A DNA stretch of 64,000 bases, from assembly GCF_003610555.1 (NCBI RefSeq), contig NZ_RAPQ01000012.1, positions 186,001 through 250,000 of the forward strand. Reading direction: 5' to 3'. The position numbers and the translations under genes were made by a program. The notes under the pieces were generated by a model. The model saw only the letters and a list, made by a program, of their open reading frames with translations, had not been told where the DNA came from and did no database searches. Of this stretch, positions 38,132 to 58,774 are shown one piece after another. This DNA comes from Marinifilum flexuosum (GTDB lineage: Bacteria; Bacteroidota; Bacteroidia; Bacteroidales; Marinifilaceae). Each line of letters opens with the position of its first letter. The first letter of the stretch is position 1.

Positions 38132-38139
38132 TATTTTTG
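38132..38139 (+). promoter_or_regulatory. −7 promoter element of hydE
   Basis: TATTTTTG fits TAnnTTTG and lies 27 bp before the ATG at 38167. It overlaps the in-frame TTG (38137), which is therefore unlikely to be a start codon. Confidence 0.6.
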
Positions 38140-38166
38140 TCGGAGAAACAACAGATACAAAATCAA

Positions 38167-39258
38167 ATGTCAAAAAGTATTCAACAGATCCTGGAGCAAG
38201 ACTCATTAACAAAAGAAAATATAATCCAATTATTAAAATCTACCGGAGAAGATGAGAAGGCATTGTTTGCCAAATCATCTGAAGTTAAGCTTAATTACAT
38301 TGGAAAAAATGTTCATTTCAGAGGATTGGTTGAATTCTCAAACATCTGTAAAAAGGATTGTTTGTACTGTGGCATTAGAGCAGGAAACAAAAATGTTGAC
38401 CGATACGACATTGCTGACGAAGAGATACTAAAAGCTGCAAAATTTGCTTACGATAACAACTATGGCTCGGTGGTTCTTCAGTCTGGTGAAAGATCGGACA
38501 AGGAATTTGTTGACAGAATTGAAAATCTGCTAAAGGAAATTAAAAAACTTAGCAACAACGAGCTTGGCATTACCATCTCGTTAGGTGAACAAAGCAAAGA
38601 AACCTACCAACGTTGGTATGATGCAGGAGCTCACCGATACTTACTAAGAATTGAATCGAGCAATCGTGAATTGTATGAGAAAATTCATCCCAAGAATGAC
38701 AATCATGCTCATGCAACAAGATTAAGTTGTCTGAAAGCTTTACAAAACATCGGCTATCAGACAGGTACTGGTGTAATGATTGGCATTCCATTTCAGACTT
38801 ATGAAGATTTGGCCAATGACTTGTTGTTCATGAAAGAATTTGACATCGATATGGTAGGAATGGGACCATTCATCGAGCATGATGAAACGCCATTGTATGA
38901 ATATCGCGATCAGTTAATGAGTTTGAATGATAGATTCAGATTAACTCTTAGAATGATTGCCGTTTTGCGCATTTTAATGAAAGACATCAACATTGCATCG
39001 GCAACAGCTCTGCAAGCAATTGATCCATTAGGGAGAGAAAAGGCCCTAAGAATTGGTGCCAACATAATCATGCCAAATATTACTCCAACCAACGAAAGAG
39101 CCAACTATTTGCTTTATCAGAACAAGCCTTGTATTGATGAAGGTGCGGATGACTGTACAAACTGCATGGAAGCCAGAATCAACATGGCCGATGGAGAAAT
39201 TGGCTACGGAGAATGGGGAGATTCAAGACACTATGCAAACAGAAGGAAGAATGTTTAG
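38167..39258 (+). CDS. hydE: [FeFe]-hydrogenase maturase HydE (radical SAM)
   Basis: Radical SAM enzyme needed for the azadithiolate/diiron part of the H-cluster. The cluster motif is CKKDCLYCGIR (CxxxCxxC); RYDIADEEIL and LQSGERSD follow, then ELGITISLGEQ, RIESSNRELYEKIHP, TGTGVMIGIPFQTYEDL and GMGPFIEHDETPL, all typical of HydE. A C-terminal auxiliary cluster appears possible from CIDEGADDCTNCMEARI. I start at the ATG 38167 (363 aa, family-sized) rather than the TTG at 38137, which lies in the promoter. It stands alone on the plus strand; hydG and the TM1266 homologue lie 5 kb on, and hydF is not in the window. Confidence 0.95.
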   Translation: MSKSIQQILEQDSLTKENIIQLLKSTGEDEKALFAKSSEVKLNYIGKNVHFRGLVEFSNICKKDCLYCGIRAGNKNVDRYDIADEEILKAAKFAYDNNYGSVVLQSGERSDKEFVDRIENLLKEIKKLSNNELGITISLGEQSKETYQRWYDAGAHRYLLRIESSNRELYEKIHPKNDNHAHATRLSCLKALQNIGYQTGTGVMIGIPFQTYEDLANDLLFMKEFDIDMVGMGPFIEHDETPLYEYRDQLMSLNDRFRLTLRMIAVLRILMKDINIASATALQAIDPLGREKALRIGANIIMPNITPTNERANYLLYQNKPCIDEGADDCTNCMEARINMADGEIGYGEWGDSRHYANRRKNV

Positions 39259-44087: not shown

Positions 44088-45521
44088 TTAGAAATAAAGG
44101 TCACGCTCCCCTTTTTTAACAAGTTCGAGACGCTCCTCAAGCTGCTCAACTTTTTGGGTATCTTTTAGCTCTTTCTTCTTTAGTTCGATTAACTTATATC
44201 CTTTTTCTTTCATTTCAGGAGTACCGTAATCTTCCAGATATTCAGCAAGAGTAAGAATTGCATTCTGAGTACAATATCTCTTGATAAAGCCAGGAACAGA
44301 AAATTCCATAAAATGTTCACCTGTTCTTCCCTTACGATAACAAGCCGTACAGAATGATGGCAAGTATTGCTTGTCTAAAAGCTCATCAATTACTTCTCCA
44401 AGACTTCTGGTATCACCAATCTCGAATTGTTCATGATCTAACTTCTGCTCTTCTCTGGATTCCTCGCTATACCCTCCCAATTGGATATTGGTACCTGCAT
44501 CAATTTGCGATACTCCTAGTCGGATTACTTCTTCACGAATCTCTTGAGTTTCACGAGCTGTTAAAATTAATCCTGTGTATGGGACCGCCAGCCTTAAAAT
44601 TGCAACCAAACGAATGAAATCTCCATCACTTACTTCAAATTTTGGATCAATCGTAGAATCCGAAGCTGCTTTAATTCTAGGAAATGAAATAGTATGTGGA
44701 CCAACATTGTAACACGCCTCGAAGTGATTTACATGGCGAACCAAGCCCATCACATCAAATTTCCAATCGAAAAGTCCAAACAAGGCACCAATTCCGACAT
44801 CATCAATTAATGCCTCTTGTGCACGATCCAAACCTGTAAGTCTCCAATCAAAATCTGCCTTCTTACCACTGATATGGTAACGCGAATAAGCCTCTCTGTT
44901 ATATGTTTCCTGGAATATCTGATAAGTCCCAATTCCAGCTTCTTTCACTTTCTTATATCCTTCTATATCCAAAGGAGCAGCATTAATATTCACACGACGA
45001 ATTTCACCGTTGCCAGATTTCACCTTATAAACCGTTTTCACGGAATCCGCAATAAAATCCGCATCATACATTGGATGTTCACCATACACCAATATCAAAC
45101 GCTTCTGCCCATTATCTTCCAATGCCTTTACATCGCTAATAATCTGGTCATGTGAAAGAGTAGTTCTTTTTTGCTTTTTATTAGATGCTCTAAACCCACA
45201 ATAAGTACAATTATTGGTACACTTATTTCCAATGTACAAAGGAGCAAAAATTACTATTCTATCACCATAAACTCTCTCCTTTAAGGTACGAGCACCTTCT
45301 TTAATTTCCTCAATTAATTCAGGATCTTCAGTTTTCAAAAGAGCCGCAGTCTCCTGTAAACTCAGTCGATTCTTATCAAGTGACTTTTTAATAATTCGAC
45401 GAACATTTTCCTTAGATGCGTCAGCTTCTTCAAGCATTTCCCAAATTTCAGATTCATCGATAAAAGGTTTCATCCTCTCATCTTTAATCCGATACTCTTG
45501 AGGTTTGTAGATCATTTTCAT
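44088..45521 (-). CDS. hydG: [FeFe]-hydrogenase maturase HydG (tyrosine lyase, radical SAM)
   Basis: Cleaves tyrosine to p-cresol and supplies Fe(CO)2(CN) units for the H-cluster. 477 aa, normal size. The radical SAM motif is CTNNCTYCGFR (CxxxCxxC) with VYGEHPMYD and RVNINAAPLDIEGY following, then the strongly conserved TYQIFQETYNREAYSRYHISG. The C-terminal auxiliary-cluster region begins CTACYRKGRTGEHFM, with the third Cys in YCTQNA. It is the first gene of a hydG-TM1266-homologue pair. Upstream is a TAATTTTG −7 element and an inverted repeat in the leader. Confidence 0.97.
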   Translation of the reverse strand: MKMIYKPQEYRIKDERMKPFIDESEIWEMLEEADASKENVRRIIKKSLDKNRLSLQETAALLKTEDPELIEEIKEGARTLKERVYGDRIVIFAPLYIGNKCTNNCTYCGFRASNKKQKRTTLSHDQIISDVKALEDNGQKRLILVYGEHPMYDADFIADSVKTVYKVKSGNGEIRRVNINAAPLDIEGYKKVKEAGIGTYQIFQETYNREAYSRYHISGKKADFDWRLTGLDRAQEALIDDVGIGALFGLFDWKFDVMGLVRHVNHFEACYNVGPHTISFPRIKAASDSTIDPKFEVSDGDFIRLVAILRLAVPYTGLILTARETQEIREEVIRLGVSQIDAGTNIQLGGYSEESREEQKLDHEQFEIGDTRSLGEVIDELLDKQYLPSFCTACYRKGRTGEHFMEFSVPGFIKRYCTQNAILTLAEYLEDYGTPEMKEKGYKLIELKKKELKDTQKVEQLEERLELVKKGERDLYF

Positions 45522-49846: not shown

Positions 49847-50071
49847 TTTTTATAACTTAATATGAAGAAACTTGAGATTACTGAGCAAATACAAGTTTGT
49901 CATAAAACTTCTATCATTTAAAAGCATTTAAGTAACTTTATAGTAGACCTAATTACAATAAAGTTTAGCTGCTTAAAACAAGAATAGCACAGAAAAAATC
50001 TAATATATTGATGTTAATTTATAATTTATTTAACAAGTTTTAACTTTTACTTGTTAATAAACGTTAACAAA
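49847..50071. other. Spacer with nothing recognised
   Basis: AT-rich DNA between two convergent terminators. I see no ORF, RNA structure or repeat here. Confidence 0.6.
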
Positions 50072-50123: not shown

Positions 50124-50603
50124 TTACGATTGATACTCTTTGATGATATCTGCTACATCACCAGCAGCAACACGTCCATAAACACGCTCGCCGATAGTAA
50201 CAACTGGCGCTAAACCACAAGCTCCTACACAACGCAAGCAACTAATAGAGAATTTACCATCCTCTGTGGTTTCTCCCACTGGCACATCAAGCTGACGCTT
50301 GAATTCTTCCAATACTTTTTCGGCACCTCTTACATAACAAGCAGTTCCCATACAGATTGAGATTGGGAATTCTCCTTTAGGTACCATTGAAAAGAATGAG
50401 TAGAATGTTACAACACCATAAACGTGAGCAACAGCTACATTCAATTCACGAGCAATGATTTCCTGAACTTCTGCAGGCAGGTAACCAAAAGTCTCCTGAG
50501 CCTTATGAAGCACATTAATCAACTCGCTTCCTTCATTATTAAATGATTTGCAAATCTCCACAAGCTTATCCACTTTGGATTTTGCTAATTTAATTTTTGC
50601 CAT
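50124..50603 (-). CDS. hndA: NuoE/HndA-like [2Fe-2S] subunit of [FeFe] hydrogenase
   Basis: A 159-aa thioredoxin-fold protein of the complex I 24-kDa type, with the [2Fe-2S] ligands CMGTACYVRGAE and CLRCVGACGLAP. The N-terminal helical part (LVEICKSFNNEGSELINVLHKAQETFGYLP) is also typical. It passes electrons between the flavoprotein HndC and the catalytic subunit. It is unusual in being the last gene of the operon, after hndD, whereas Desulfovibrio hnd runs A-B-C-D. An AAGGAG sequence 9 nt before the ATG is a Shine-Dalgarno, rare in this window. Confidence 0.93.
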   Translation of the reverse strand: MAKIKLAKSKVDKLVEICKSFNNEGSELINVLHKAQETFGYLPAEVQEIIARELNVAVAHVYGVVTFYSFFSMVPKGEFPISICMGTACYVRGAEKVLEEFKRQLDVPVGETTEDGKFSISCLRCVGACGLAPVVTIGERVYGRVAAGDVADIIKEYQS

Positions 50604-50655
50604 AATATAAACTCCTTATATTGTTGGATTTCAAATCCTGATGGTTCAAAATAAT

Positions 50656-52428
50656 TTATTCAATCTCGATTTCATTACTCTTATCGAAGTAATGAGTATG
50701 TAACAACTTATGAGATAATTCACTACATGGTTTACCCAAGAATTCTTCATACAATTTAATAATGTATGGATTCTCGTGTGACTTACGGATTGCTTTTCCT
50801 TCATCTTCGCGATAAAGAGCAGCTGCACGTTTCTTCAAAATTGAAGAATCGCCATGGTGTAATGGCTGACCACCACCACCAATACAACCACCAGGACAAG
50901 CCATAATTTCAATTGCATGATATTGTGATTTACCATCTCTGATATCTTCAAGAAGTTTACGTGCATTACCTAAACCATGAGCAATACCAATGTTAATTGG
51001 AAGACCATCGAAATCTACAGTTGCGCTACGGATACCTTCCATACCACGCAATGCATCGAAATCAACCTTTTCAAGAGTTTTTCCTGTATAAACTTCGTAA
51101 GCAGTACGAGCAGCAGCTTCGATTACACCACCTGTAGCACCGAAGATTACACCAGCACCAGTTGATTCACCAAGTGGATTATCAAAATCTTCTTCTGGAA
51201 GAGTTGTTAAATCCATATTAGCTTGCTTAATCAAATTCGCTAACTCACGAGTAGAAATTGAATAGTTTACATCAGGATCACCATCTACTTTAAACTCGTC
51301 ACGCTGACACTCATACTTTTTAGCCAAACAAGGCATAATTGATACAACAATCATATCCTCACGCTTCACACCCATCTTATCTGCAAGATAAGTTTTAGCA
51401 ATAGGGCCAAACATTTGCTGTGGAGAACGAGCTGTTGAAGGAATATCCTTCATATCTGGGAAGTGGTGCTCGAAAAAGTTCACCCAACCTGGACAACATG
51501 AAGTTAAGATAGGAAGTTTAACATCCTTATCTCCATCAAGGTGTTTCTGCAAGCGCTCAAGCAACTCAGTACCTTCCTCCATAATTGTAAGATCGGCAGC
51601 AAAATCAGTATCGAATACGCTATTGAAACCTAATCTGCGTAATGCAGAAACCATTTTACCGGTAACCAAAGTACCAGCTTCCATTCCAAACTCTTCACCC
51701 AAAGCAGCACGTACAGCAGGAGCTGTTTGTACAACAACAGTTTTCTTAGGATCAGCAAGATCTCTAATCAATTGATTCGTGTGATCTTTCTCAGTTAATG
51801 CACCTGTAGGACATACAGCTACACACTGACCGCAATAAGTACAAGTTGATTTCTCTAAATCCATTTCGAAAGCTGGAGCTACAACAGATTCAAAACCTCT
51901 GTTTACTGCAGAAAGAGCTCCTACAGTTTGTACATCATTACACATTGTTTCACAACGACGACACATGATACACTTATCCATATCACGGATAATAGATGGA
52001 GAGTAATCTACTTTATAAGTTGACTGTTCACCTTTGTAGTGTAATTCGCGTACGCCAAACTGGTGCGCCATGGTTTGCAAATCACAATTTCCTGATTTTG
52101 CACAAACCAAACAATCAAATGGGTGATCAGAAAGCATCAACTCCATTACAGTTTTACGAGCATTTAACACTCTCATGTTGTGAGTATGAATAACCATTCC
52201 TTCCTCACATTTTGAGTTACAAGAAGGTGCCAAGTTACGACGTCCTTCTACCTCAACAACACAAATTCGACATCCGCCAGGCTTGTGTTCAATGCCCATA
52301 TCACCCAAGTGCATATAACAAAGCGTTGGAATTTCAATTCCTAACTCCTTTGCTGCTTCATAAATAGTAGTTCCCTGAGGTACTTCTATTTGTTTATTAT
52401 CAATGGTTAATTTGATCATTTTTTCCAT
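50656..52428 (-). CDS. hndD: NAD(P)-linked [FeFe] hydrogenase catalytic subunit (HndD/HydA type)
   Basis: A 590-aa catalytic subunit. Order: plant-type [2Fe-2S] domain (residues 1-80, CRICVVEVEG), His-ligated [4Fe-4S] (HPFDCLVCAKSGNC), two [4Fe-4S] motifs (CIMCRRCETMC; CTYCGQCVAVCP), then the H-cluster domain with L1 TSCCPGWVNF, L2 MPCLAKKYECQR and L3 EIMACPGGCIGGGGQP, all ligand cysteines intact. There is no extra C-terminal [2Fe-2S] domain, as in HndD. The open frame reaches back to 52605 inside hndC, but MEKMIKLTID at 52428, behind a strong Shine-Dalgarno, is the start. It makes or uses H2. Confidence 0.96.
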   Translation of the reverse strand: MEKMIKLTIDNKQIEVPQGTTIYEAAKELGIEIPTLCYMHLGDMGIEHKPGGCRICVVEVEGRRNLAPSCNSKCEEGMVIHTHNMRVLNARKTVMELMLSDHPFDCLVCAKSGNCDLQTMAHQFGVRELHYKGEQSTYKVDYSPSIIRDMDKCIMCRRCETMCNDVQTVGALSAVNRGFESVVAPAFEMDLEKSTCTYCGQCVAVCPTGALTEKDHTNQLIRDLADPKKTVVVQTAPAVRAALGEEFGMEAGTLVTGKMVSALRRLGFNSVFDTDFAADLTIMEEGTELLERLQKHLDGDKDVKLPILTSCCPGWVNFFEHHFPDMKDIPSTARSPQQMFGPIAKTYLADKMGVKREDMIVVSIMPCLAKKYECQRDEFKVDGDPDVNYSISTRELANLIKQANMDLTTLPEEDFDNPLGESTGAGVIFGATGGVIEAAARTAYEVYTGKTLEKVDFDALRGMEGIRSATVDFDGLPINIGIAHGLGNARKLLEDIRDGKSQYHAIEIMACPGGCIGGGGQPLHHGDSSILKKRAAALYREDEGKAIRKSHENPYIIKLYEEFLGKPCSELSHKLLHTHYFDKSNEIEIE

Positions 52429-52436
52429 TTTAAGAT

Positions 52437-52443
52437 CCTCCTT
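52437..52443 (-). promoter_or_regulatory. Strong Shine-Dalgarno overlapping the hndC stop codon
   Basis: TAAGGAGG on the minus strand merges the hndC stop (TAA, 52444-52442) with a full AAGGAGG, 8 nt before the hndD ATG. It fixes the start and implies translational coupling. Confidence 0.8.
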
Positions 52444-54235
52444 ACTGAATGCTAATCGCATTAAACTTACATTTCTCCATACAAGCACCACACTTGATAC
52501 ACTTAGCTGTATCGATAATGTGAGCTTCCTTACGATCTCCGGCAATACAATCAACCGGACAGTTGCGAGCACAAAGAGTACATCCAACACAAAGTTCAGG
52601 ATCAATTACATATTGCATTAATGCCTTACACTGACCTGATGGACACTTATGTTCCTCAACGTGAGCAATGTATTCATCGTAGAAGTTTTCAATTGTAGAA
52701 AGAACAGGATTTGGTGATGTCTGTCCTAAACCACAAAGAGAAGTATCTTTAATTACAGTACTTAAGTTTCTCAATAAATCAAGATCTTCCTTGGTACCTT
52801 TACCTTCGGTAATTTTATCCAATAATTCGTATAAACGCTTGTTACCTACACGACATGGAGTACACTTACCACATGATTCTTCAACAGTAAAGTCAAGGTA
52901 GAATTTTGCAACAGAAACCATACAGTCATCTTCGTCCATTACAATCATACCACCTGATCCCATCATAGAACCAACAGCAAGAAGGTTATCAAAATCAATT
53001 GGTGTATCCAAGTGTTTTTCAGTCAGACATCCACCTGATGGACCACCTGTTTGAACAGCCTTGAATTTCTTACCATCTTTGATACCACCACCAATTTCGT
53101 AAATTACTTCACGAAGAGTAGTTCCCATTGGCACCTCGATCAAACCTACGTTATTAATCTTACCTGCCAAAGCAAATACTTTAGTACCAGTTGATTTTTC
53201 TGTACCAATTTTGTTGAACCAACCAGCACCCTTATTAATAATAACAGGAATGTTAGCAAAAGTTTCAACGTTGTTTACGTTTGTAGGCTTTCCATTATAA
53301 CCAGATTCCGCTGGGAATGGAGGCTTAACAGTAGGCTCACCACGAAGACCTTCCATAGAGTGAATCAATGCAGTCTCCTCACCACATACGAAAGCTCCAG
53401 CTCCATAACGCATTTCAACATCAAAGTTGAAACCAGAACCAAGAATATCATTACCTAACAAACCATATTCTCTAGCTTGAGCGATAGCCACTTTCAAACG
53501 TTCAATTGCCAGTGGATACTCAGCACGGATATAGATCACACCTTTATCAGCACCCATTGTGTAACCACAAATAGCCATTGCCTCTAGTACTGAGTGTGGA
53601 TCTCCCTCAAGGATAGAACGGTCCATAAATGCTCCTGGATCTCCCTCATCAGCATTACAAACTACATATTTCTGATCAGCATCGTTTTTAGAAGCAAATT
53701 CCCACTTCAAACCTGTTGGGAAACCTCCACCTCCTCGTCCGCGAAGTCCAGAGTCCTTAATTTCATTGATTACTGACTGTGGAGTCATCTCAGTTAAACA
53801 CTTTCCAAGAGCTGCGTATCCTTCAGTAGCAATATATTCATCGATATTTTCAGGATTAATAAAACCACAGTTACGCAATGCAATACGAATCTGCTTTTTA
53901 TAGAATCCCATATGCTTAGAGTCACTAACAACTTCCTTCTTTTCAGGATCGGTATAAAGTAAACGCATTACTTTACGTCCTTTAATAATATGCTCTTCGA
54001 TAATTTCTTCTGCATCTTCAGGCTTCACTTCAATATAGAAGGTATTATCAGGAAGAATTTTTACAATCGGTCCTTTTTCACAAAATCCAAAGCAACCTGT
54101 CATTACTACCTGAACTTCTTCTTCAAGCCCTTTAGCTTTTAGAGCATCCTGTAGATTATTTTGAATAGCCTCACTTGCAGATGCACGACATCCTGTACCT
54201 CCACAAATAAGAATATGCATTTTATACTTTTCCAT
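52442..54235 (-). CDS. hndC: NuoF-like FMN/NAD(P)-binding flavoprotein subunit of [FeFe] hydrogenase
   Basis: A 597-aa diaphorase subunit. Residues 1-90: thioredoxin-like [2Fe-2S] (CGGTGCRASAS; MTGCFGFCEKGP). Residues about 150-430: complex I 51-kDa core with GRGGGGFPTGLKW (NAD) and CNADEGDPGAFMDRS (FMN), then SLBB. Then NADH 4Fe-4S ligands ESCGKCTPCRVG and SLCGLGQ, and a C-terminal 2[4Fe-4S] ferredoxin domain (CVGCTLCARNCP; CIKCGACMEKCK). Subunits of this layout occur in electron-bifurcating hydrogenases that couple NADH and ferredoxin, and this one has the right clusters; whether it bifurcates is inferred. It lies 17 bp after hndB. Confidence 0.95.
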   Translation of the reverse strand: MEKYKMHILICGGTGCRASASEAIQNNLQDALKAKGLEEEVQVVMTGCFGFCEKGPIVKILPDNTFYIEVKPEDAEEIIEEHIIKGRKVMRLLYTDPEKKEVVSDSKHMGFYKKQIRIALRNCGFINPENIDEYIATEGYAALGKCLTEMTPQSVINEIKDSGLRGRGGGGFPTGLKWEFASKNDADQKYVVCNADEGDPGAFMDRSILEGDPHSVLEAMAICGYTMGADKGVIYIRAEYPLAIERLKVAIAQAREYGLLGNDILGSGFNFDVEMRYGAGAFVCGEETALIHSMEGLRGEPTVKPPFPAESGYNGKPTNVNNVETFANIPVIINKGAGWFNKIGTEKSTGTKVFALAGKINNVGLIEVPMGTTLREVIYEIGGGIKDGKKFKAVQTGGPSGGCLTEKHLDTPIDFDNLLAVGSMMGSGGMIVMDEDDCMVSVAKFYLDFTVEESCGKCTPCRVGNKRLYELLDKITEGKGTKEDLDLLRNLSTVIKDTSLCGLGQTSPNPVLSTIENFYDEYIAHVEEHKCPSGQCKALMQYVIDPELCVGCTLCARNCPVDCIAGDRKEAHIIDTAKCIKCGACMEKCKFNAISIQ

Positions 54236-54252
54236 AATTGCGTTTTCTTTTG

Positions 54253-54651
54253 TTAGTTGTTGTCAATAGTTTTGTAGTTAACAGGAATAATGCCGTCTAC
54301 TAATTCACCCTGCTTGATGTACTTTTCAATAACTTCATCAGCTTTCTTAAGATCAACATCTCCAAAAACAACAGGTTCTTTACCTGGCATTGTTACTTCA
54401 ATTGTTGGTTCTGCATAGCAGTATCCCATACAACCTGTCTGCGTAACAATAGAATTAATACCTCTTTTGGCTGTAGCTTCAATTAGAAACTCCATTACCT
54501 CTTTTGCTCCTGATGCAATTCCACAAGTTGCCATACCAACTTTAATTTGCACCTGAGCTTCCGGATCGTTGCTCTTCTCCCTAAGATCCATCTTTGCATG
54601 CAGCTCTTCTTTTATCTTCTTCAGATCTGCAAGGGATTTAACTTTTGCCAT
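54253..54651 (-). CDS. hndB: HndB-like thioredoxin-fold [2Fe-2S] protein
   Basis: A 132-aa protein. Residues 1-30 are a charged helix (SLADLKKIKEELHAKM) and the rest a [2Fe-2S] thioredoxin-like domain: MATCGIASGAKEV and TQTGCMGYCYAEPTIEV, matching the C-terminal domain of HndB. It begins the structural half of the operon. It is probably an electron-carrying accessory subunit beside HndC. Gaps to neighbours are 30 bp upstream and 17 bp downstream. Confidence 0.9.
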   Translation of the reverse strand: MAKVKSLADLKKIKEELHAKMDLREKSNDPEAQVQIKVGMATCGIASGAKEVMEFLIEATAKRGINSIVTQTGCMGYCYAEPTIEVTMPGKEPVVFGDVDLKKADEVIEKYIKQGELVDGIIPVNYKTIDNN

Positions 54652-54681
54652 AATCTCAAATTATTAAAGGTTAGAATTTAA

Positions 54682-55227
54682 TTATCTATATAATATTGTG
54701 TTTAGGTTCTCTTTAATCATTTCCTTTAAGTATTGCATGATATTCGGATCTGAAACCGGCATATCGTCCAAAACTTCCTTTACTTCTTTCGTATCAAAAA
54801 TATATTCACCCTCATCGGTAATATGCGTATAAATAAAATCCATTTCCGGATTCGCTCCTACCAACAAAACCATTGTTCCCGCTATATCTCCTAATGTAGG
54901 ACGATCAAGGTGTTTGTGAGAAAAAGTTGCTTCCAATTCAGTCCCAACACCTTCTTTCGAACTGATTTCCATCCTTCCTCCTGTCATTTCCGCATTTTGC
55001 TTTAGCAAAGGCAGGCCCAACCCAACCTTTCGTGTGGTTCTGGTTGTAAAAAATGGATCAATCGCCTTTGCCAGCATCTCTTCAGACATTCCAAAGCCAT
55101 TGTCTTTAATTGAGATTGAAAACAAGTCTTCTTTCATACTTTCTGTAATTTTCAATTCAACCAAAGATGCTTCAGCTCTCACTGAATTCTGGATGATATC
55201 CATAATATGCATCGACAAATCTTTCAT
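54682..55227 (-). CDS. Stand-alone histidine-kinase-type ATPase (no phosphoacceptor domain)
   Basis: A 181-aa protein whose first 115 residues are a complete GHKL ATPase: N-box IIQNSVRAEA, G1 DNGFGM, F-box PFFTTRTT and G2 GLGLPLLKQN, then GTELEATF. There is no HisKA domain, no membrane span and no sensor. The C-terminal 65 residues (VLLVGANPEMDFIYTHITDEGEYIFDT) are not recognised. The start overlaps the PHP gene stop by 4 bp (ATGA), so the two are coupled. Proteins like this occur in hydrogenase operons of Clostridia; whether it is a kinase, an anti-sigma-like switch or an ATP-sensor is unknown. Confidence 0.85.
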   Translation of the reverse strand: MKDLSMHIMDIIQNSVRAEASLVELKITESMKEDLFSISIKDNGFGMSEEMLAKAIDPFFTTRTTRKVGLGLPLLKQNAEMTGGRMEISSKEGVGTELEATFSHKHLDRPTLGDIAGTMVLLVGANPEMDFIYTHITDEGEYIFDTKEVKEVLDDMPVSDPNIMQYLKEMIKENLNTILYR

Positions 55228-55967
55228 TTTTCAATCTCTACTTTTCGGCCTTTTTCTGATCTCAACGCTTTCCTTACTTCACAAAAACTTAATTCTTCCA
55301 TAAAAAAATTAGTCCACGTATTGCCTATATTTTCAATATAATGAGCATCCGAACTTGTAATAAAGTTGTATTTGCTCAAATACTTATTCTTTTTTAAGAA
55401 CTCTTCTTTTGTTATATGATGAGAGAGTTCCAATGCATCAACGTTCAAATCGGCAGGTAAAAACCCTAATTGACTTATGATACTGTTCATCATTTTATTG
55501 ATATGAGCAGGAATAAATAATCCTTCTAAATCATGAACTTTTCTTTCAATTTCTTCAATACTCTGACTCAACCCTGAAATCAAGAGACATTCTACCTCAT
55601 CAACAATTTCTTCTTTCTCATTTACTACCACCTGATATCCAAATTTATTTTCATCATTAGGTATTTTTGGTAAGTGCTGATCTAAGTATTTCTGAAATTC
55701 AGAAAGTTTTACCTCATCCTCAAAAAAGCACAAACAATGTACCTCTTCCTTGGTGGTTACCTCTGCTCCCATCAAGACCATAATTCCTTCCTTTGCAGCC
55801 AATTCTTTAATTAGCGGTGCATGCAAGGTCGAATTGTGGTCCGTTATTCCCAATATGTCAATTCCACGTTCACTGGCTTTTTGAACAATATTAACCGGGC
55901 TCATCTCCAAGTCTCCACAGGGAGATAAAACAGTATGCGTATGCAAATCTGCCCGGTACTTTCTCAT
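55224..55967 (-). CDS. PHP-domain metal-dependent phosphoesterase
   Basis: A 247-aa PHP protein. Metal-site residues are in RADLHTHTVLSPCGD (HxH plus Asp), GITDHN (D-H) and LMGAEVTTKEEVHCLCFF (Glu), with SSDAH near the C-terminus as the last ligand pair. PHP enzymes hydrolyse phosphate esters, phospho-histidinol or exonuclease substrates; none is indicated. In this operon, between a DRTGG protein and an ATPase, it could remove a phosphate placed by the ATPases (speculation). 4-bp overlap downstream, 1-bp gap upstream. Confidence 0.88.
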   Translation of the reverse strand: MRKYRADLHTHTVLSPCGDLEMSPVNIVQKASERGIDILGITDHNSTLHAPLIKELAAKEGIMVLMGAEVTTKEEVHCLCFFEDEVKLSEFQKYLDQHLPKIPNDENKFGYQVVVNEKEEIVDEVECLLISGLSQSIEEIERKVHDLEGLFIPAHINKMMNSIISQLGFLPADLNVDALELSHHITKEEFLKKNKYLSKYNFITSSDAHYIENIGNTWTNFFMEELSFCEVRKALRSEKGRKVEIEK

Positions 55968-55968
55968 T

Positions 55969-56310
55969 CTATTTTGCCTGATTTATGATTTCATATAGTT
56001 TTCCTGTTAGCTCAAAAGCTTCCTCCTCTGAAGAAAGAATTGGAATTCCTTCCTCATTACTTTGTTCTGCAGCATCTGCTTCTGGTTCATAACCTTTTAC
56101 CAAAACAATGGCTGCCAATTCTTTTAAAGAAGCAATTGCCATGATATTCTTGTGAGTTTGCAATGTCACCCAAACATGGTTTTCATCTGCATTTCCCATA
56201 ACATCGCTTAACAAATCCGAAGTGTAACCTCCTTCTATTTCACGATTCAATCCATTTGCTCCTGAACAAACTTTCAGTCCTAACTTTTCAACTATATCTT
56301 GTACTATCAT
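55969..56310 (-). CDS. DRTGG-domain protein 1
   Basis: A 113-aa stand-alone DRTGG-type domain, the fold found N-terminal to HPr kinases and in phosphotransacetylases. The pattern VEKLGLKVCSGANGLNREIEGGYTSDLLSDVMGNA, then VWVTLQTHKNIMAIASLKELAAIVLVKG and the closing LTGKLYEI is shared with its paralogue 1.8 kb upstream. Not an enzyme by itself. The ligand is unknown. It lies between the PHP gene (1 bp) and the sensory hydrogenase gene (4 bp). Confidence 0.85.
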   Translation of the reverse strand: MIVQDIVEKLGLKVCSGANGLNREIEGGYTSDLLSDVMGNADENHVWVTLQTHKNIMAIASLKELAAIVLVKGYEPEADAAEQSNEEGIPILSSEEEAFELTGKLYEIINQAK

Positions 56311-56314
56311 GGTA

Positions 56315-57682
56315 TTAATGATCGTTTAAATTCTTTTTTTCAAACCTGCTTTTCCCCCAAGTGTCTTCTGAAATATCAAATGATTCCTGAGGAGATATTA
56401 AACCTTCTTTGGTTAACATCTTTTGAAGAAAAACACATTGTGTCATCTTAGCCTTTCCCTGAACCACATCTTTCGCCAAAGCCTGACAGCGTGGTGCCCC
56501 ACAAGCTCCACAATCGATTCCGGGAAGAACTTTCATAATACGATTGATTTTCTTCATCTTCTTCATGGCAACCATCATATCCGAATCTAAACTTAAAATC
56601 GATCGTGGTTCCACTTTATTTATTCCAATATTCTCCTGAAGGTATGTTTTATACAAATCAATTTCTCTTTCCGGCATAATCATAGGCTTGTTTCTATGAT
56701 ACCAAGCAGCACGTTTTCTCAAGCGTTCAATTGCAAGAAAACGATTCTCGGCAGCTAGTACTCCTCCTGCACAAGAGTGATCACATGCTCGAAGTTCCAA
56801 AAAGTCCACATCGGTTATTTCTTCGTTCTCCAACTTTTCCAAAACCTCAATTACATTATGTATCTCATCAATAGCCAAACACCTTCCTGAATACCTTGAT
56901 GCCTCACCCGCTGTTAGCGTCCAACCAATGCTTCTTCGAGACATATGTATATTTTCCGGGTATTTTTTTGTTTCCTTCTTACTATTCTTAATACTAAGCA
57001 GAACCTTATTGTAGATGAAATCCATATTAATAACTCCATCTATTAAAGATTTCTCCTCTCCTACAGGACTTTTTACCGCTGCAATTTTTGCAGCACAAGG
57101 AGTCACGTAAAAAATCCCTATTTCTTTCTGGGCATATCCTTTATCTTGTAGTTTCTTGCGATAAAACTGAGCTGAAATATCAATTACAGGTTTTAACTGA
57201 ATGATATTATCCACAAGAGCTGGAAATTTAACCTGTATCAATCTAACAATTGCTGGACAAAAGCTAGATATAAAAGGTCTCTCCTGATGATGCTTGTGCA
57301 TAAATTTTTTAGTAGAATCAATCAATACATCAACAGCACCATCCACCTCATAAACATGCGTAAATCCAAGGTCTTTGATTTCATTGTAGATTTGAACCTC
57401 AGAAACGTCATCTGGAAATTGCCCCAATAAAACAGTAGGCAAAAGAGCTACTCTCTGTTTGTAGTTGAATATTTGAGTAAAGTCATCCTGCTCCACAATA
57501 ATCGCATTAACAGGACAAGCTTTCAAACATTCACCACAATCAACACAAGCATTTTTATTAATATCAGCAGTACCATTTTTTACACGAATAGCAGCAGTTG
57601 GGCATACGTTCATACAGTGTGTACATCCCATACACACTTCATCAACTACTTTTAATGCGTGATAAAAATGAATCTGCTCCAT
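56315..57682 (-). CDS. Sensory/regulatory-type [FeFe] hydrogenase homologue
   Basis: A 455-aa protein. N-terminal 2[4Fe-4S] (CMGCTHCMNVCP; CVDCGECLKACP), an H-cluster-like domain, and a C-terminal four-Cys Fe-S domain (IDCGACGAPRC-x17-CVF), with no PAS domain. Candidate H-cluster cysteines remain but the loops are altered: L1 is SSFCPAIVR instead of TSCCPGW, L2 is VTPCAAK instead of MPCxxK, and L3 is LRACDHSCAGG instead of MACPGGCIGGGGQ. The second Cys of L1, which is the proton-transfer residue's neighbourhood in active enzymes, is Phe-Cys here. This fits the HydS/group C-D class thought to sense H2 or redox state rather than catalyse. Central gene of the regulatory half of the operon. Confidence 0.85.
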   Translation of the reverse strand: MEQIHFYHALKVVDEVCMGCTHCMNVCPTAAIRVKNGTADINKNACVDCGECLKACPVNAIIVEQDDFTQIFNYKQRVALLPTVLLGQFPDDVSEVQIYNEIKDLGFTHVYEVDGAVDVLIDSTKKFMHKHHQERPFISSFCPAIVRLIQVKFPALVDNIIQLKPVIDISAQFYRKKLQDKGYAQKEIGIFYVTPCAAKIAAVKSPVGEEKSLIDGVINMDFIYNKVLLSIKNSKKETKKYPENIHMSRRSIGWTLTAGEASRYSGRCLAIDEIHNVIEVLEKLENEEITDVDFLELRACDHSCAGGVLAAENRFLAIERLRKRAAWYHRNKPMIMPEREIDLYKTYLQENIGINKVEPRSILSLDSDMMVAMKKMKKINRIMKVLPGIDCGACGAPRCQALAKDVVQGKAKMTQCVFLQKMLTKEGLISPQESFDISEDTWGKSRFEKKNLNDH

Positions 57683-57686
57683 TATT

Positions 57687-58100
57687 CTATCCGAAATAAT
57701 TTATGATTTCAAGCTCTGTACCAACATCAACCTTGCTAGTAATATTCATTTGATCAGAATTACGTTTGATGTTTGGCAATCCCATTCCGGCACCGAACCC
57801 CATTTCTCTTACCTGTGGAGAAGCTGTAGAATATCCTTCTTGCATGGCCTGATCAATATCTGGAATTCCTGGACCTTTATCTTCAATCTTTACGACAATC
57901 TTGTCAGTGTCGATATCCACGTTCATATTGCCTTCAAATGCATGAGCTACAACATTAACTTCCGCCTCATACAATGAAACAACTGTTCTCTTTATAATCT
58001 TAGGATTTACATTTAGCTGTTTAAGGATTTTTTTCACTTCACTTGAAGCTGATCCTGCTTTAGAAAAATTACCACCCTCTATTGCAAACTTAAATTCCAT
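57687..58100 (-). CDS. RsbW-like anti-sigma-type ATPase
   Basis: A 137-aa GHKL ATPase of the anti-sigma/serine kinase branch (SpoIIAB/RsbW): N-box SLYEAEVNVVAHAF, G1 IEDKGPGIPD, G2 MGFGAGMGLPNIKRN, then TELEIINYF. It is cytoplasmic. No anti-anti-sigma factor or sigma factor is encoded nearby, so its target is not evident; the DRTGG protein before it (9 bp) or the hydrogenase homologue after it (4 bp) are the obvious partners. Confidence 0.87.
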   Translation of the reverse strand: MEFKFAIEGGNFSKAGSASSEVKKILKQLNVNPKIIKRTVVSLYEAEVNVVAHAFEGNMNVDIDTDKIVVKIEDKGPGIPDIDQAMQEGYSTASPQVREMGFGAGMGLPNIKRNSDQMNITSKVDVGTELEIINYFG

Positions 58101-58109
58101 TCCCGTCTA

Positions 58110-58457
58110 TTAATATACAGGTTGTAAACCTATCTCATTTAAAATTGAACAAGCTCTGAACATTGAATGTCCACATTCGATTAAAGTAATCTCATTCTCA
58201 CATGCCAATTCTTTCATTTCCTCTGTCGCTTTCTTATCTCTTACAAATAAAATGAAAGATATATCAGACATTTCAGATGTACGAATGGTCTGCAGATTAT
58301 TTAAACCCGTTATTAAAAGAAGATTTTCTGTATCTAATGTTAGTACGTCACTCATTAAATCCGAAGCAAATCCAAATTGAATTTCTTGATCCATATCACT
58401 GCTTCCACAAATAACACGTGCATTAAGTCTATCAACCATATCTGCCACTTTCACCAT
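58110..58457 (-). CDS. DRTGG-domain protein 2
   Basis: A 115-aa paralogue of the protein at 55969-56310: VDRLNARVICGSSDMDQEIQFGFASDLMSDVLTLD, then LLLITGLNNLQTIRTSEMSDISFILFV. The two share the EI-x-G-x-x-SDL-SDV core. It is the first gene of the ten-gene hydrogenase operon. Function as for paralogue 1 is unknown; a ligand- or phosphate-binding switch is plausible. Confidence 0.82.
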   Translation of the reverse strand: MVKVADMVDRLNARVICGSSDMDQEIQFGFASDLMSDVLTLDTENLLLITGLNNLQTIRTSEMSDISFILFVRDKKATEEMKELACENEITLIECGHSMFRACSILNEIGLQPVY

Positions 58458-58774
58458 TACTGCAGTATTAAGTTATGTTTATCTTTTCAATCTTTCTTAA
58501 TGGCACTAAGATAAGAATTTGAGGTATATTAATAAATGATATTTAAAGGAATAGATTTATTTTAATCAAATACATAATTAGTCTAAATAATACCCTATAA
58601 ACTATCAATTCTAAATAAAAATACGATCGTGTTTTTAAGTCTTAATTTTCAAAACATATTTAGAAATTAAGATTAAACTGTTAGCTTGTTATTATTAAGA
58701 AGGAGTTTTTTTTAAGTATATTCGTCAGATATCAGAAAACATTTGGCTTAATTAGCAAATTATTTCTTTAATTA
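58458..58774. other. Divergent spacer upstream of the hydrogenase operon
   Basis: 317 bp between the operon (minus) and the Usp-like gene (plus), without an ORF. It holds an inverted repeat TCTTAATTT (58640-58648) and AAATTAAGA (58664-58672) with a 15-nt spacer, and a −7-like TATATTCG before the Usp-like gene. I found no good −7 element for the operon itself. Confidence 0.5.

Follow-up and report, generated by a model that had tools for sequence, protein, structure and literature searches.

Sensory-type [FeFe] hydrogenases of groups C and D have so far been called sensors on indirect grounds. TamHydS of Thermoanaerobacter mathranii, a group D protein, is described as catalytically active at low rates (PMC8163306), and H2 is reported to induce a change in its secondary structure while its C-terminal cluster is not reduced by H2; according to the same 2026 study, the interaction partners of group D HydS are still to be found (PMC13104023). 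An ATPase resembling histidine kinases is known beside HydABC in A. woodii, as HydE, with a suggested role in 'assembly or signalling' (PMC3315566), and such an ATPase is reported to lie outside the enzyme both there and in the NiFe-Bfu of A. mobile (PMC9304861); the arrangement of a histidine kinase with a group D hydrogenase is credited to Calusinska et al. in PMC3608648. A gene list of 2014 for Halanaerobium hydrogeniformans contains a putative operon of ten genes, Halsa_1862-1871, labelled as hydrogenase, NADH dehydrogenase, ferredoxin-like, histidine kinase, NuoE, PHP, two Fe-S/hydrogenase proteins, anti-sigma kinase and unidentified open reading frame (PMC4237134). Here we analyse a cluster of ten genes in Marinifilum flexuosum, at positions 50124-58457 of a stretch of 64,000 nucleotides (contig NZ_RAPQ01000012.1, positions 186,001 to 250,000; hereafter the window), in which six accessory genes, one of them encoding a sensory-type hydrogenase (HydS), precede four hnd genes. 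Across related genomes these six genes form a module that follows the NuoEF-type electron-bifurcating core of the Bfu family, even where the catalytic subunit of the enzyme differs. The ten genes, in order of transcription, are:

58110..58457, minus strand: DRTGG1, 115 amino acids, the first gene (PF07085 23.8 bits, below threshold; motif DLMSDVL with Ser36)
57687..58100, minus strand: SpoIIAB/RsbW-like GHKL protein, 137 amino acids, a predicted Ser/Thr kinase (HATPase_c_2 39.3 bits)
56315..57682, minus strand: HydS, sensory [FeFe] hydrogenase of group D (M2e) type, 455 amino acids (Fe_hyd_lg_C 84 bits, PF04060, 4Fe-4S domains)
55969..56310, minus strand: DRTGG2, 113 amino acids (PF07085 26.4 bits; motif SDLLSDVMG with Ser35)
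55224..55967, minus strand: PHP-domain phosphoesterase, 247 amino acids (PF02811 40.3 bits)
54682..55227, minus strand: GHKL/GHL-like ATPase with a C-terminal domain, 181 amino acids (HATPase_c 56.8 bits, no HisKA match in Pfam)
54253..54651, minus strand: HndB-like protein, 132 amino acids (similarity to 2Fe-2S ferredoxin models, under cut-off)
52442..54235, minus strand: HndC/HydB/BfuB, NuoF-type NAD- and FMN-binding subunit, 597 amino acids (Pfam, NCBIfam)
50656..52428, minus strand: HndD/HydA, group A6 NADH-dependent [FeFe] hydrogenase, 590 amino acids from the first ATG (NF040763 905 bits, cut-off 765)
50124..50603, minus strand: HndA/HydC/BfuC, NuoE-type 2Fe-2S subunit, 159 amino acids (domain matches)

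The ten reading frames are arranged as the earlier note on this DNA had described them, with gaps of 9, 4, 4, 1, −4, 30, 17, 13 and 52 base pairs (bp). The 13-bp gap assumes that HydA starts at its first ATG, at 52428, a longer reading frame with a TTG start being also possible; domain scans of HydA started two codons ahead of this ATG. Judged by domain content, the combination of an A6 HydA with NuoF and NuoE partners would make HndABCD an enzyme of the HydABC/Bfu type. A Pfam scan of the ten proteins found no HisKA, receiver or sigma-factor family, as that note had also claimed, nor any STAS family.

Two samples of genomes and loci (G and L numbers) were compared. The first consists of the loci of the best 80 of 555 named relatives, all titled Bacteroidota or one of its families, which as the closest relatives are a biased sample. 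The second, the order sample, comprises 247 genomes drawn evenly across Bacteroidales, of which 78 contain HydS (E <= 1e-90), 86 a protein of DRTGG1/2 type (E <= 1e-8) and 158 an A6 hydrogenase (E <= 1e-200). Co-occurrence of the accessory genes with hydrogenases had been set beforehand as a refuting test, and was found: an A6 hydrogenase is present in 75/78 genomes with HydS vs 83/169 without it (Fisher p = 5e-15, uncorrected for shared ancestry; G192, discussed below, is still counted among the 169). No genome contains HydS without DRTGG1 (0/78).

Gene order is equally regular. Among the 80 named loci, DRTGG1 adjoins the RsbW-like gene in 78/78 testable cases and the latter adjoins HydS in 78/78; HydS and DRTGG2 are adjacent in all 79 loci not cut by a contig end (one is cut), as are DRTGG2 and PHP (79/79), while PHP directly adjoins the ATPase gene in 62 loci and lies at some distance from it in 9; of the others, 4 are cut by a contig end, 4 lack the ATPase and 1 is not testable. 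In the order sample, synteny was read for 77 of the 78 HydS-positive genomes (the remaining one, G270, stands outside these counts and has all six module genes in order, at L215), and 9 of the 77 loci have a HydS identical to that of a named locus. RsbW and HydS are adjacent in 77/77 and HydS and DRTGG2 in 64; where DRTGG1 lies on the locus (76), it is adjacent to RsbW in 74 and fused to it in 2, and in G122 it lies on another contig. In 14/77 of these loci DRTGG1 is preceded on its own strand by a second HydA gene, which ends 200-328 bp before it.

Three HydS-positive genomes (G250, G033 and G081) were found without an A6 hydrogenase. The hydrogenase of G250 and the NuoF of G033 are each cut at a contig end, and the G033 hydrogenase is therefore probably missing from the assembly; an earlier suggestion that HydS is the only maturase client in G033 (it is apparently the only PF02906 protein there, with HydG and HydF kept) was withdrawn for this reason. 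Four genomes have DRTGG1 with no HydS found (G064, G117, G166 and G169). G192 was at one time taken as a fifth, which was withdrawn because a HydS fragment (53% identity over residues 5-189, in an open frame of 191 amino acids) lies at a contig end on another contig. In a draw across the phylum, HydS was present in 3/296 genomes, one being the source genome, and no virus-borne copy was found among viral contigs (28 pattern matches, 0 relatives). The module also occurs in a record named Subdoligranulum variabile (L127; Clostridia, plasmid-labelled and unannotated), where NuoE-ATPase-HndB-NuoF-HydA diverge from DRTGG1-RsbW-HydS-DRTGG2-PHP.

The module breaks mostly between DRTGG1-RsbW-HydS and DRTGG2-PHP-ATPase, which separate as units and give substance to the idea of a duplicated half put forward in the earlier note. 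DRTGG1-RsbW-HydS occurs without an adjoining DRTGG2 in L031, L138, L140, L141, L149 and L187, DRTGG2-PHP-ATPase lies beside hnd genes in L142, and the order of the two triads is swapped in L146, L196 and L197; the loci counted for independent separation of the triads are L137-L142 and these last three. At several loci of Odoribacteraceae type the ATPase goes with the hnd genes and the remaining five stay together, and in G122 RsbW-HydS, DRTGG1 and DRTGG2-PHP lie on three contigs. Natural fusions join DRTGG1 to RsbW (279 amino acids in L130, 272 in L131) and PHP to the ATPase (427 amino acids in L174), and on this sequence evidence suggest that the members of each of these two pairs are direct partners. 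In a tree of 44 hand-chosen rows, DRTGG1 and DRTGG2 form two groups divided by a single branch (support 100/99), each with a row from Clostridia, although the DRTGG2 row among these (L127) sits on a long branch and is placed with little certainty; the duplication of the DRTGG gene would therefore predate the spread of the module. As a separate observation, in the small genome carrying L031 a gene resembling ArsP_2 heavy-metal exporters directly follows HydS (L031:140-1024).

Most partner enzymes of the module are A6 hydrogenases, but formate dehydrogenase-, [NiFe]-Hdr- and NuoG-like enzymes also adjoin it, so that, with the four genomes with DRTGG1 and no HydS found, the notion of a self-contained [FeFe] module was not supported in the form given. 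At L133 (G117) the order is DRTGG1-RsbW-DRTGG2-PHP-ATPase-HndB-NuoF-FdhA-NuoE, where HydA is replaced by a formate dehydrogenase alpha subunit (TIGR01591 901.5 bits, cut-off 666); no HydS was found in this genome, and A6 hydrogenases are present elsewhere in it. In two genomes outside the class of the window (L213 and L214) the complete module stands ahead of NuoE-HndB-NuoF and of a BfuA that carries an HdrA2-like portion, for which NF040770 scores 429 and 430 bits against a cut-off of 1100. FlpD/VhuD-, VhuG- and VhuA-like [NiFe] subunits follow in L213, with HdrA-, HdrB- and HdrC-like genes upstream; the flanking genes of L214 were judged by eye from their first residues. The partner in L130 and L131 is a NuoE/NuoF/NuoG-like molybdopterin enzyme, followed in L131 by NfnAB-like genes. 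The order DRTGG1-RsbW-DRTGG2-PHP-ATPase is kept without HydS in L132 (cut after the ATPase gene), L133, L134 and L136. Loss of HydS beside FdhA and its retention beside a [NiFe] hydrogenase fit a sensor of H2.

Further signalling genes lie near some of these loci. At L133:17008-18999 and L192:458-3502 a long sensory-type hydrogenase-like gene (619 amino acids in L192, truncated by the end of the locus in L133) and a SpoIIE-type phosphatase-like protein of 394 amino acids stand beside the module or its Bfu operon; beyond PF02906 matches, both were judged by eye. Near the HydS-less module of L134 (L134:685-9277) lie a sensor kinase of Cache-HisKA type and a protein with receiver and HisKA domains, and a set that by eye resembles a [NiFe] hydrogenase diverges there; at L135:3647-6631, where HydS is on another contig, DRTGG1-RsbW has two kinases of similar length nearby. 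It is possible that the kinases at L134 and L135 are a replacement input.

The residues expected of active proteins are retained almost throughout. The alignments contain duplicate rows where one genome has two loci, the distinct sequences being 152/167 rows for DRTGG1, 152/168 for RsbW, 156/170 for HydS, 146/161 for DRTGG2, 145/159 for PHP and 130/144 for the ATPase; L127, L128, L213 and L214 are outside the residue counts. Two further sets were used, A5 with 31/44 possible in-frame pairs and A7 with 59 rows, mostly from the 132 collected ATPase proteins. The domain plan of HydS is a pair of 4Fe-4S sites at the N-terminus, then an H-domain and a C-terminal FeS domain, with no PAS match in Pfam or among the best 25 of 75 NCBIfam matches. 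Its H-cluster cysteines are intact (C142 and C196 in 170/170 rows, C300 and C304 in 169/170 with one gap), and a C-terminal Cx2Cx4Cx16C (C391, C394, C399, C416) is kept in 169/170. The position of the proton-path Cys299, before C142, is occupied by F in 160, S in 5 and Y in 5 of the 170 rows, and that of Met353 (HydS 194) by T in 165, S in 3 and A in 2. These positions were matched from the motif, with the criterion for group D taken from PMC8163306, and in sequence the protein fits the group D/M2e sensory [FeFe] hydrogenases. In Petrimonas mucosa the gene in the corresponding position, four locus numbers ahead of hndABCD, is given the HydDB class C1 in PMC7768429, so the naming of groups is not uniform across sources. 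Identity between the HydS of M. breve and that of the window is 98%, and in L130, L131, L213 and L214 the first 4Fe-4S motif of HydS is C-x5-C-x3-C, with one Cys fewer than in the window (the N-terminus in L131 was judged from its first residues alone).

Both DRTGG proteins lie close to the PF07085 gathering cut-off of 25.2 bits, DRTGG2 over and DRTGG1 below it, and the fused DRTGG1 domains likewise fall on either side (L130 31.4 bits, L131 24.2 bits). Within a set of 19 DRTGG rows of both kinds, drawn from two phyla, the invariant positions are Asp33, Ser36 and Thr50 alone; in the full alignments Asp33 is present in all DRTGG1 rows and Ser36 in 164/167 (150/152 distinct), and the matching Ser35 of DRTGG2 in 161/161 (146/146 distinct). 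An AlphaFold model of the natural DRTGG1-RsbW fusion from a 33-row alignment gave two folded domains (predicted local distance difference test, pLDDT, 85), with the DRTGG1 serine at the start of a helix that follows a strand. Foldseek searches with the L131 model found the AF1212 structure 2ioj for the DRTGG part (template-modelling score TMt 0.79, root-mean-square deviation 2.1) and SpoIIAB, 1til, as the nearest fold for the RsbW part (TMt 0.87). Designed 'Pizza' propellers among the PDB sequence matches of the DRTGG profile were set aside as repeat artefacts.

In the RsbW-like protein E45, N49, D74 and the glycine boxes are kept in 168/168 rows (E45 and N49 in 152/152 distinct), and we take E45/N49 to be the counterparts of E46/N50 in SpoIIAB. 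H9, H11, D43, H44, E69, H77, H155, D207 and H209 of the PHP protein, nine conserved residues that are presumably metal ligands, occur in 158-159/159 rows, and in the ATPase D10 and N14 occur in 143/144 and the glycines in 144/144. With these catalytic residues kept, all three proteins look active.

We propose that the module is an H2-gated relay of kinase, DRTGG and phosphoesterase in two triads which tunes Bfu enzymes, and assign this a probability of roughly 0.45. HydS would read H2, or the redox state, at its H-cluster, change shape and thereby set the activity of the SpoIIAB/RsbW-like kinase. This kinase would act on DRTGG1, as partner or substrate, probably at Ser36 at the helix start, by analogy with the action of SpoIIAB on the STAS protein SpoIIAA. 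DRTGG2 would be the parallel partner of the GHL-like ATPase, PHP would remove the phosphate or degrade a phospho-signal, and the DRTGG2-PHP-ATPase triad would act on the HndB/NuoE/NuoF core, such that Bfu activity is tuned to H2 and energy state. The output would be post-translational, not transcriptional, could raise or lower activity, and would involve contacts beyond the pairs found fused. The components of this proposal differ in strength: it is likely that the six genes are dedicated to regulating Bfu enzymes, with HydS providing the input, and the phospho-relay itself is tentative.

Several observations weigh against the proposed relay. No DNA- or RNA-binding output was identified in the module. 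At L134 and L136 the A6 hydrogenase has no HydS next to it, so the retention of HydS where the enzyme uses H2 is a tendency seen in few cases and not a strict rule. G081 keeps the module at L192 though HydA is absent between NuoF and NuoE, and a search of this genome found neither HydG nor HydF over cut-off. The six genes stand without hnd genes in the stretch read at L032, L148, L157, L175, L182, L189, L208, L215 and L128 (the last a Parabacteroides distasonis record, with no adjoining hnd genes), and L179 has only the upstream hydrogenase nearby; the HydS fragment of G192 is not beside RsbW, and DRTGG1-RsbW at L135 adjoins another gene. Ser36 is replaced by Gly in 3/167 DRTGG1 rows (L038, L072 and L083; two distinct sequences from one small clade), and the RsbW catalytic residues are retained in these loci. 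The AlphaFold model of the natural fusion did not fix the mutual placement of DRTGG1 and RsbW (predicted template-modelling score, pTM, 0.60), and mean-field coevolution, run on all 15 pairings among the six proteins with 142 loci (effective number 92), yielded no pair signal that could be used, as in an underpowered test: scores tended to rise with the length of the alignment, and a handful of columns came up repeatedly.

The first alternative to be weighed is that the six proteins serve the BfuBC core in assembly, insertion or repair, with the GHKL ATPases acting like chaperones, DRTGG and PHP as adaptors or quality control, and HydS as a carrier or quality sensor of Fe-S clusters. The ATPase gene lies beside HndB in 68/71 named-genome loci, the other 3 ending at a contig edge, and in the order sample the two are adjacent in 50, near each other in 2 and not side by side in 11 of 63 loci. 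In Foldseek comparisons the AlphaFold model of the ATPase (pLDDT 90.6, pTM 0.84) aligns with histidine-kinase ATPase domains across about 100 columns, and its matches to MutL, PMS2 and topoisomerase VI-B extend to 165-223 columns including gaps, at TMq of at most 0.61. Since the latter matches span most of its length, we prefer the label GHL-like ATPase: the 'HK-type' ATPase (HK, histidine kinase) of the earlier note is indeed a GHKL ATPase without HisKA or phospho-acceptor domain, but the histidine-kinase label fits it less well. The modelled likeness to GHL ATPases such as MutL, the suggestion of 'assembly or signalling' by the A. woodii authors (PMC3315566) and the presence of the module beside differing catalytic subunits would all suit assembly factors. 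However, 75/247 genomes have an A6 hydrogenase without a DRTGG1/2 match (a count of DRTGG matches, irrespective of the ATPase), which means that assembly does not everywhere require the DRTGG part, and a complete H-cluster site in HydS is unexpected in an assembly factor. We consider this explanation unlikely.

Quite unlikely, in our view, is a nucleotide-signal system in which DRTGG and the ATPases read adenine nucleotides (energy charge or an alarmone), PHP is a nucleotide phosphoesterase and HydS adds an H2 input. Solved relatives of DRTGG, in sequence and fold, include the DRTGG part of a nucleotide-regulated CBS-pyrophosphatase, but in these pyrophosphatases AMP and ADP are described as bound by the CBS domains (PMC10742508). 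PHP matches models of 3',5'-nucleoside bisphosphate phosphatase and of TrlF, all far below cut-offs; against this, no enzyme that makes a nucleotide is encoded in the cluster, and both fusions and triads suggest that the partners are proteins.

Partner switching on a sigma factor, with the RsbW-like protein as an anti-sigma factor that H2 releases to change transcription of the operon, is improbable. SpoIIAB is both its best NCBIfam match and its nearest fold, and in group C the HydS enzymes are usually proposed to control expression (PMC10055695, PMC11837493); however, the NCBIfam match scores 56 bits vs a cut-off of 135, and a search confined to the ten genes found no sigma or STAS gene among them. 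It is very improbable that HydS serves mainly as an additional catalytic hydrogenase beside small genes that are cotranscribed incidentally, since, although TamHydS is active (PMC8163306) and the H-cluster cysteines of HydS are intact, DRTGG1 accompanies HydS in 78/78 genomes, the triads separate independently, fusions occur and the five-gene order persists without HydS (L132, L133, L134, L136).

Returning to the H2-gated relay, it may represent a signalling class not described before, in which an [FeFe] H2 sensor would act through a SpoIIAB-like kinase on a DRTGG rather than a STAS substrate, mirrored by a DRTGG-ATPase-PHP output, as a general post-translational control of Bfu enzymes whatever their third substrate. 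This extension is doubtful; if true, anaerobes would have a common means of matching electron bifurcation to H2 pressure.

Two other features of the window bear on the cluster:

58458..58774, minus strand: upstream region, in which about 130 bp beside the DRTGG1 start are strongly conserved in Marinifilum/Labilibaculum (9 loci)
44088..45521, minus strand: hydG, H-cluster maturase, outside the operon (TIGR03955 503 bits, over cut-off)

The conserved upstream block (about 58458-58600) contains a palindrome core, TTTAGACTAA, which is varied in some Marinifilum/Labilibaculum loci. A Rex-like pattern allowing up to 3 mismatches had no match upstream of DRTGG1, and its 12 matches in the window do not exceed chance expectation. 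A perfect TTGTTAA-N6-TTAACAA palindrome (0 mismatches) lies at 50051-50070, where the NuoE gene and a kelch-like gene converge, between their 3' ends, and on its sequence is a candidate terminator or Rex-like site. Rfam (at gathering cut-offs) and tRNA scans of the window found nothing. A hydE-like radical-SAM gene is present at 38137-39258 on the plus strand, judged by its translation and a weak match to the HydG model, and hydF lies elsewhere in the source genome (G000:C1:782343), which encodes six proteins with an [FeFe]-hydrogenase domain, two of them A6.

In relation to known systems, the RsbW-like protein shares with SpoIIAB-SpoIIAA and RsbW-RsbV the GHKL Ser/Thr-kinase fold and the Glu/Asn of the N-box, and a conserved serine near a helix start, as in the DRTGG domain, is also a feature of SpoIIAA. 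Unlike those systems, the proposed partner is a DRTGG and not a STAS protein, the cluster has no sigma factor, and the matches are below NCBIfam cut-offs. HydS resembles TamHydS of group D/M2e, as that protein is described, in its two N-terminal 4Fe-4S sites, the lack of the proton-path Cys, a hydroxyl residue at Met353, the Cx2Cx4Cx16C motif and the absence of PAS; TamHydS also lies upstream of a bifurcating hydABC with an HK-like ATPase nearby, as here (PMC8163306, PMC3608648). The neighbours named in those accounts are an HK-like ATPase and an AraC-type gene, not DRTGG, PHP or RsbW-like genes, whereas here the whole partner set is present, in Bacteroidota. In group C (Ruminococcus albus; the hfs operon of Thermoanaerobacterium) the sensory-type hydrogenase is reported beside a gene for a SpoIIE-family/serine phosphatase (PMC11837493); that group has PAS and a phosphatase gene, whereas here we found no PAS and there are a SpoIIAB-like kinase, a PHP phosphoesterase and DRTGG proteins.

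HndABCD is of the HydABC/Bfu type, and the swapped BfuA subunits match the family concept of PMC9304861, where hisK is described beside one member (NiFe-Bfu); in the text of that account available to us the DRTGG/RsbW/HydS/PHP set is not mentioned, the terms DRTGG and PHP having 0 occurrences. Halsa_1862-1871 appear to be the same ten genes, Halsa_1868, 1869 and 1871 being, to judge by their order, probably DRTGG2, HydS and DRTGG1; the order differs in part from that of the window, and the entry, as far as available, is an annotation list without identification of DRTGG or function (PMC4237134). A search of the open-licence literature, outside which most subscription journals lie, found no link between DRTGG and hydrogenases in the text available, and no published account of the module beyond this list. 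Already published are group D HydS, the ATPase beside it and a single plain list of genes; what is new is a defined partner set, in which co-occurrence, triads and fusions name candidate partners for HydS and indicate which pairs to take first.

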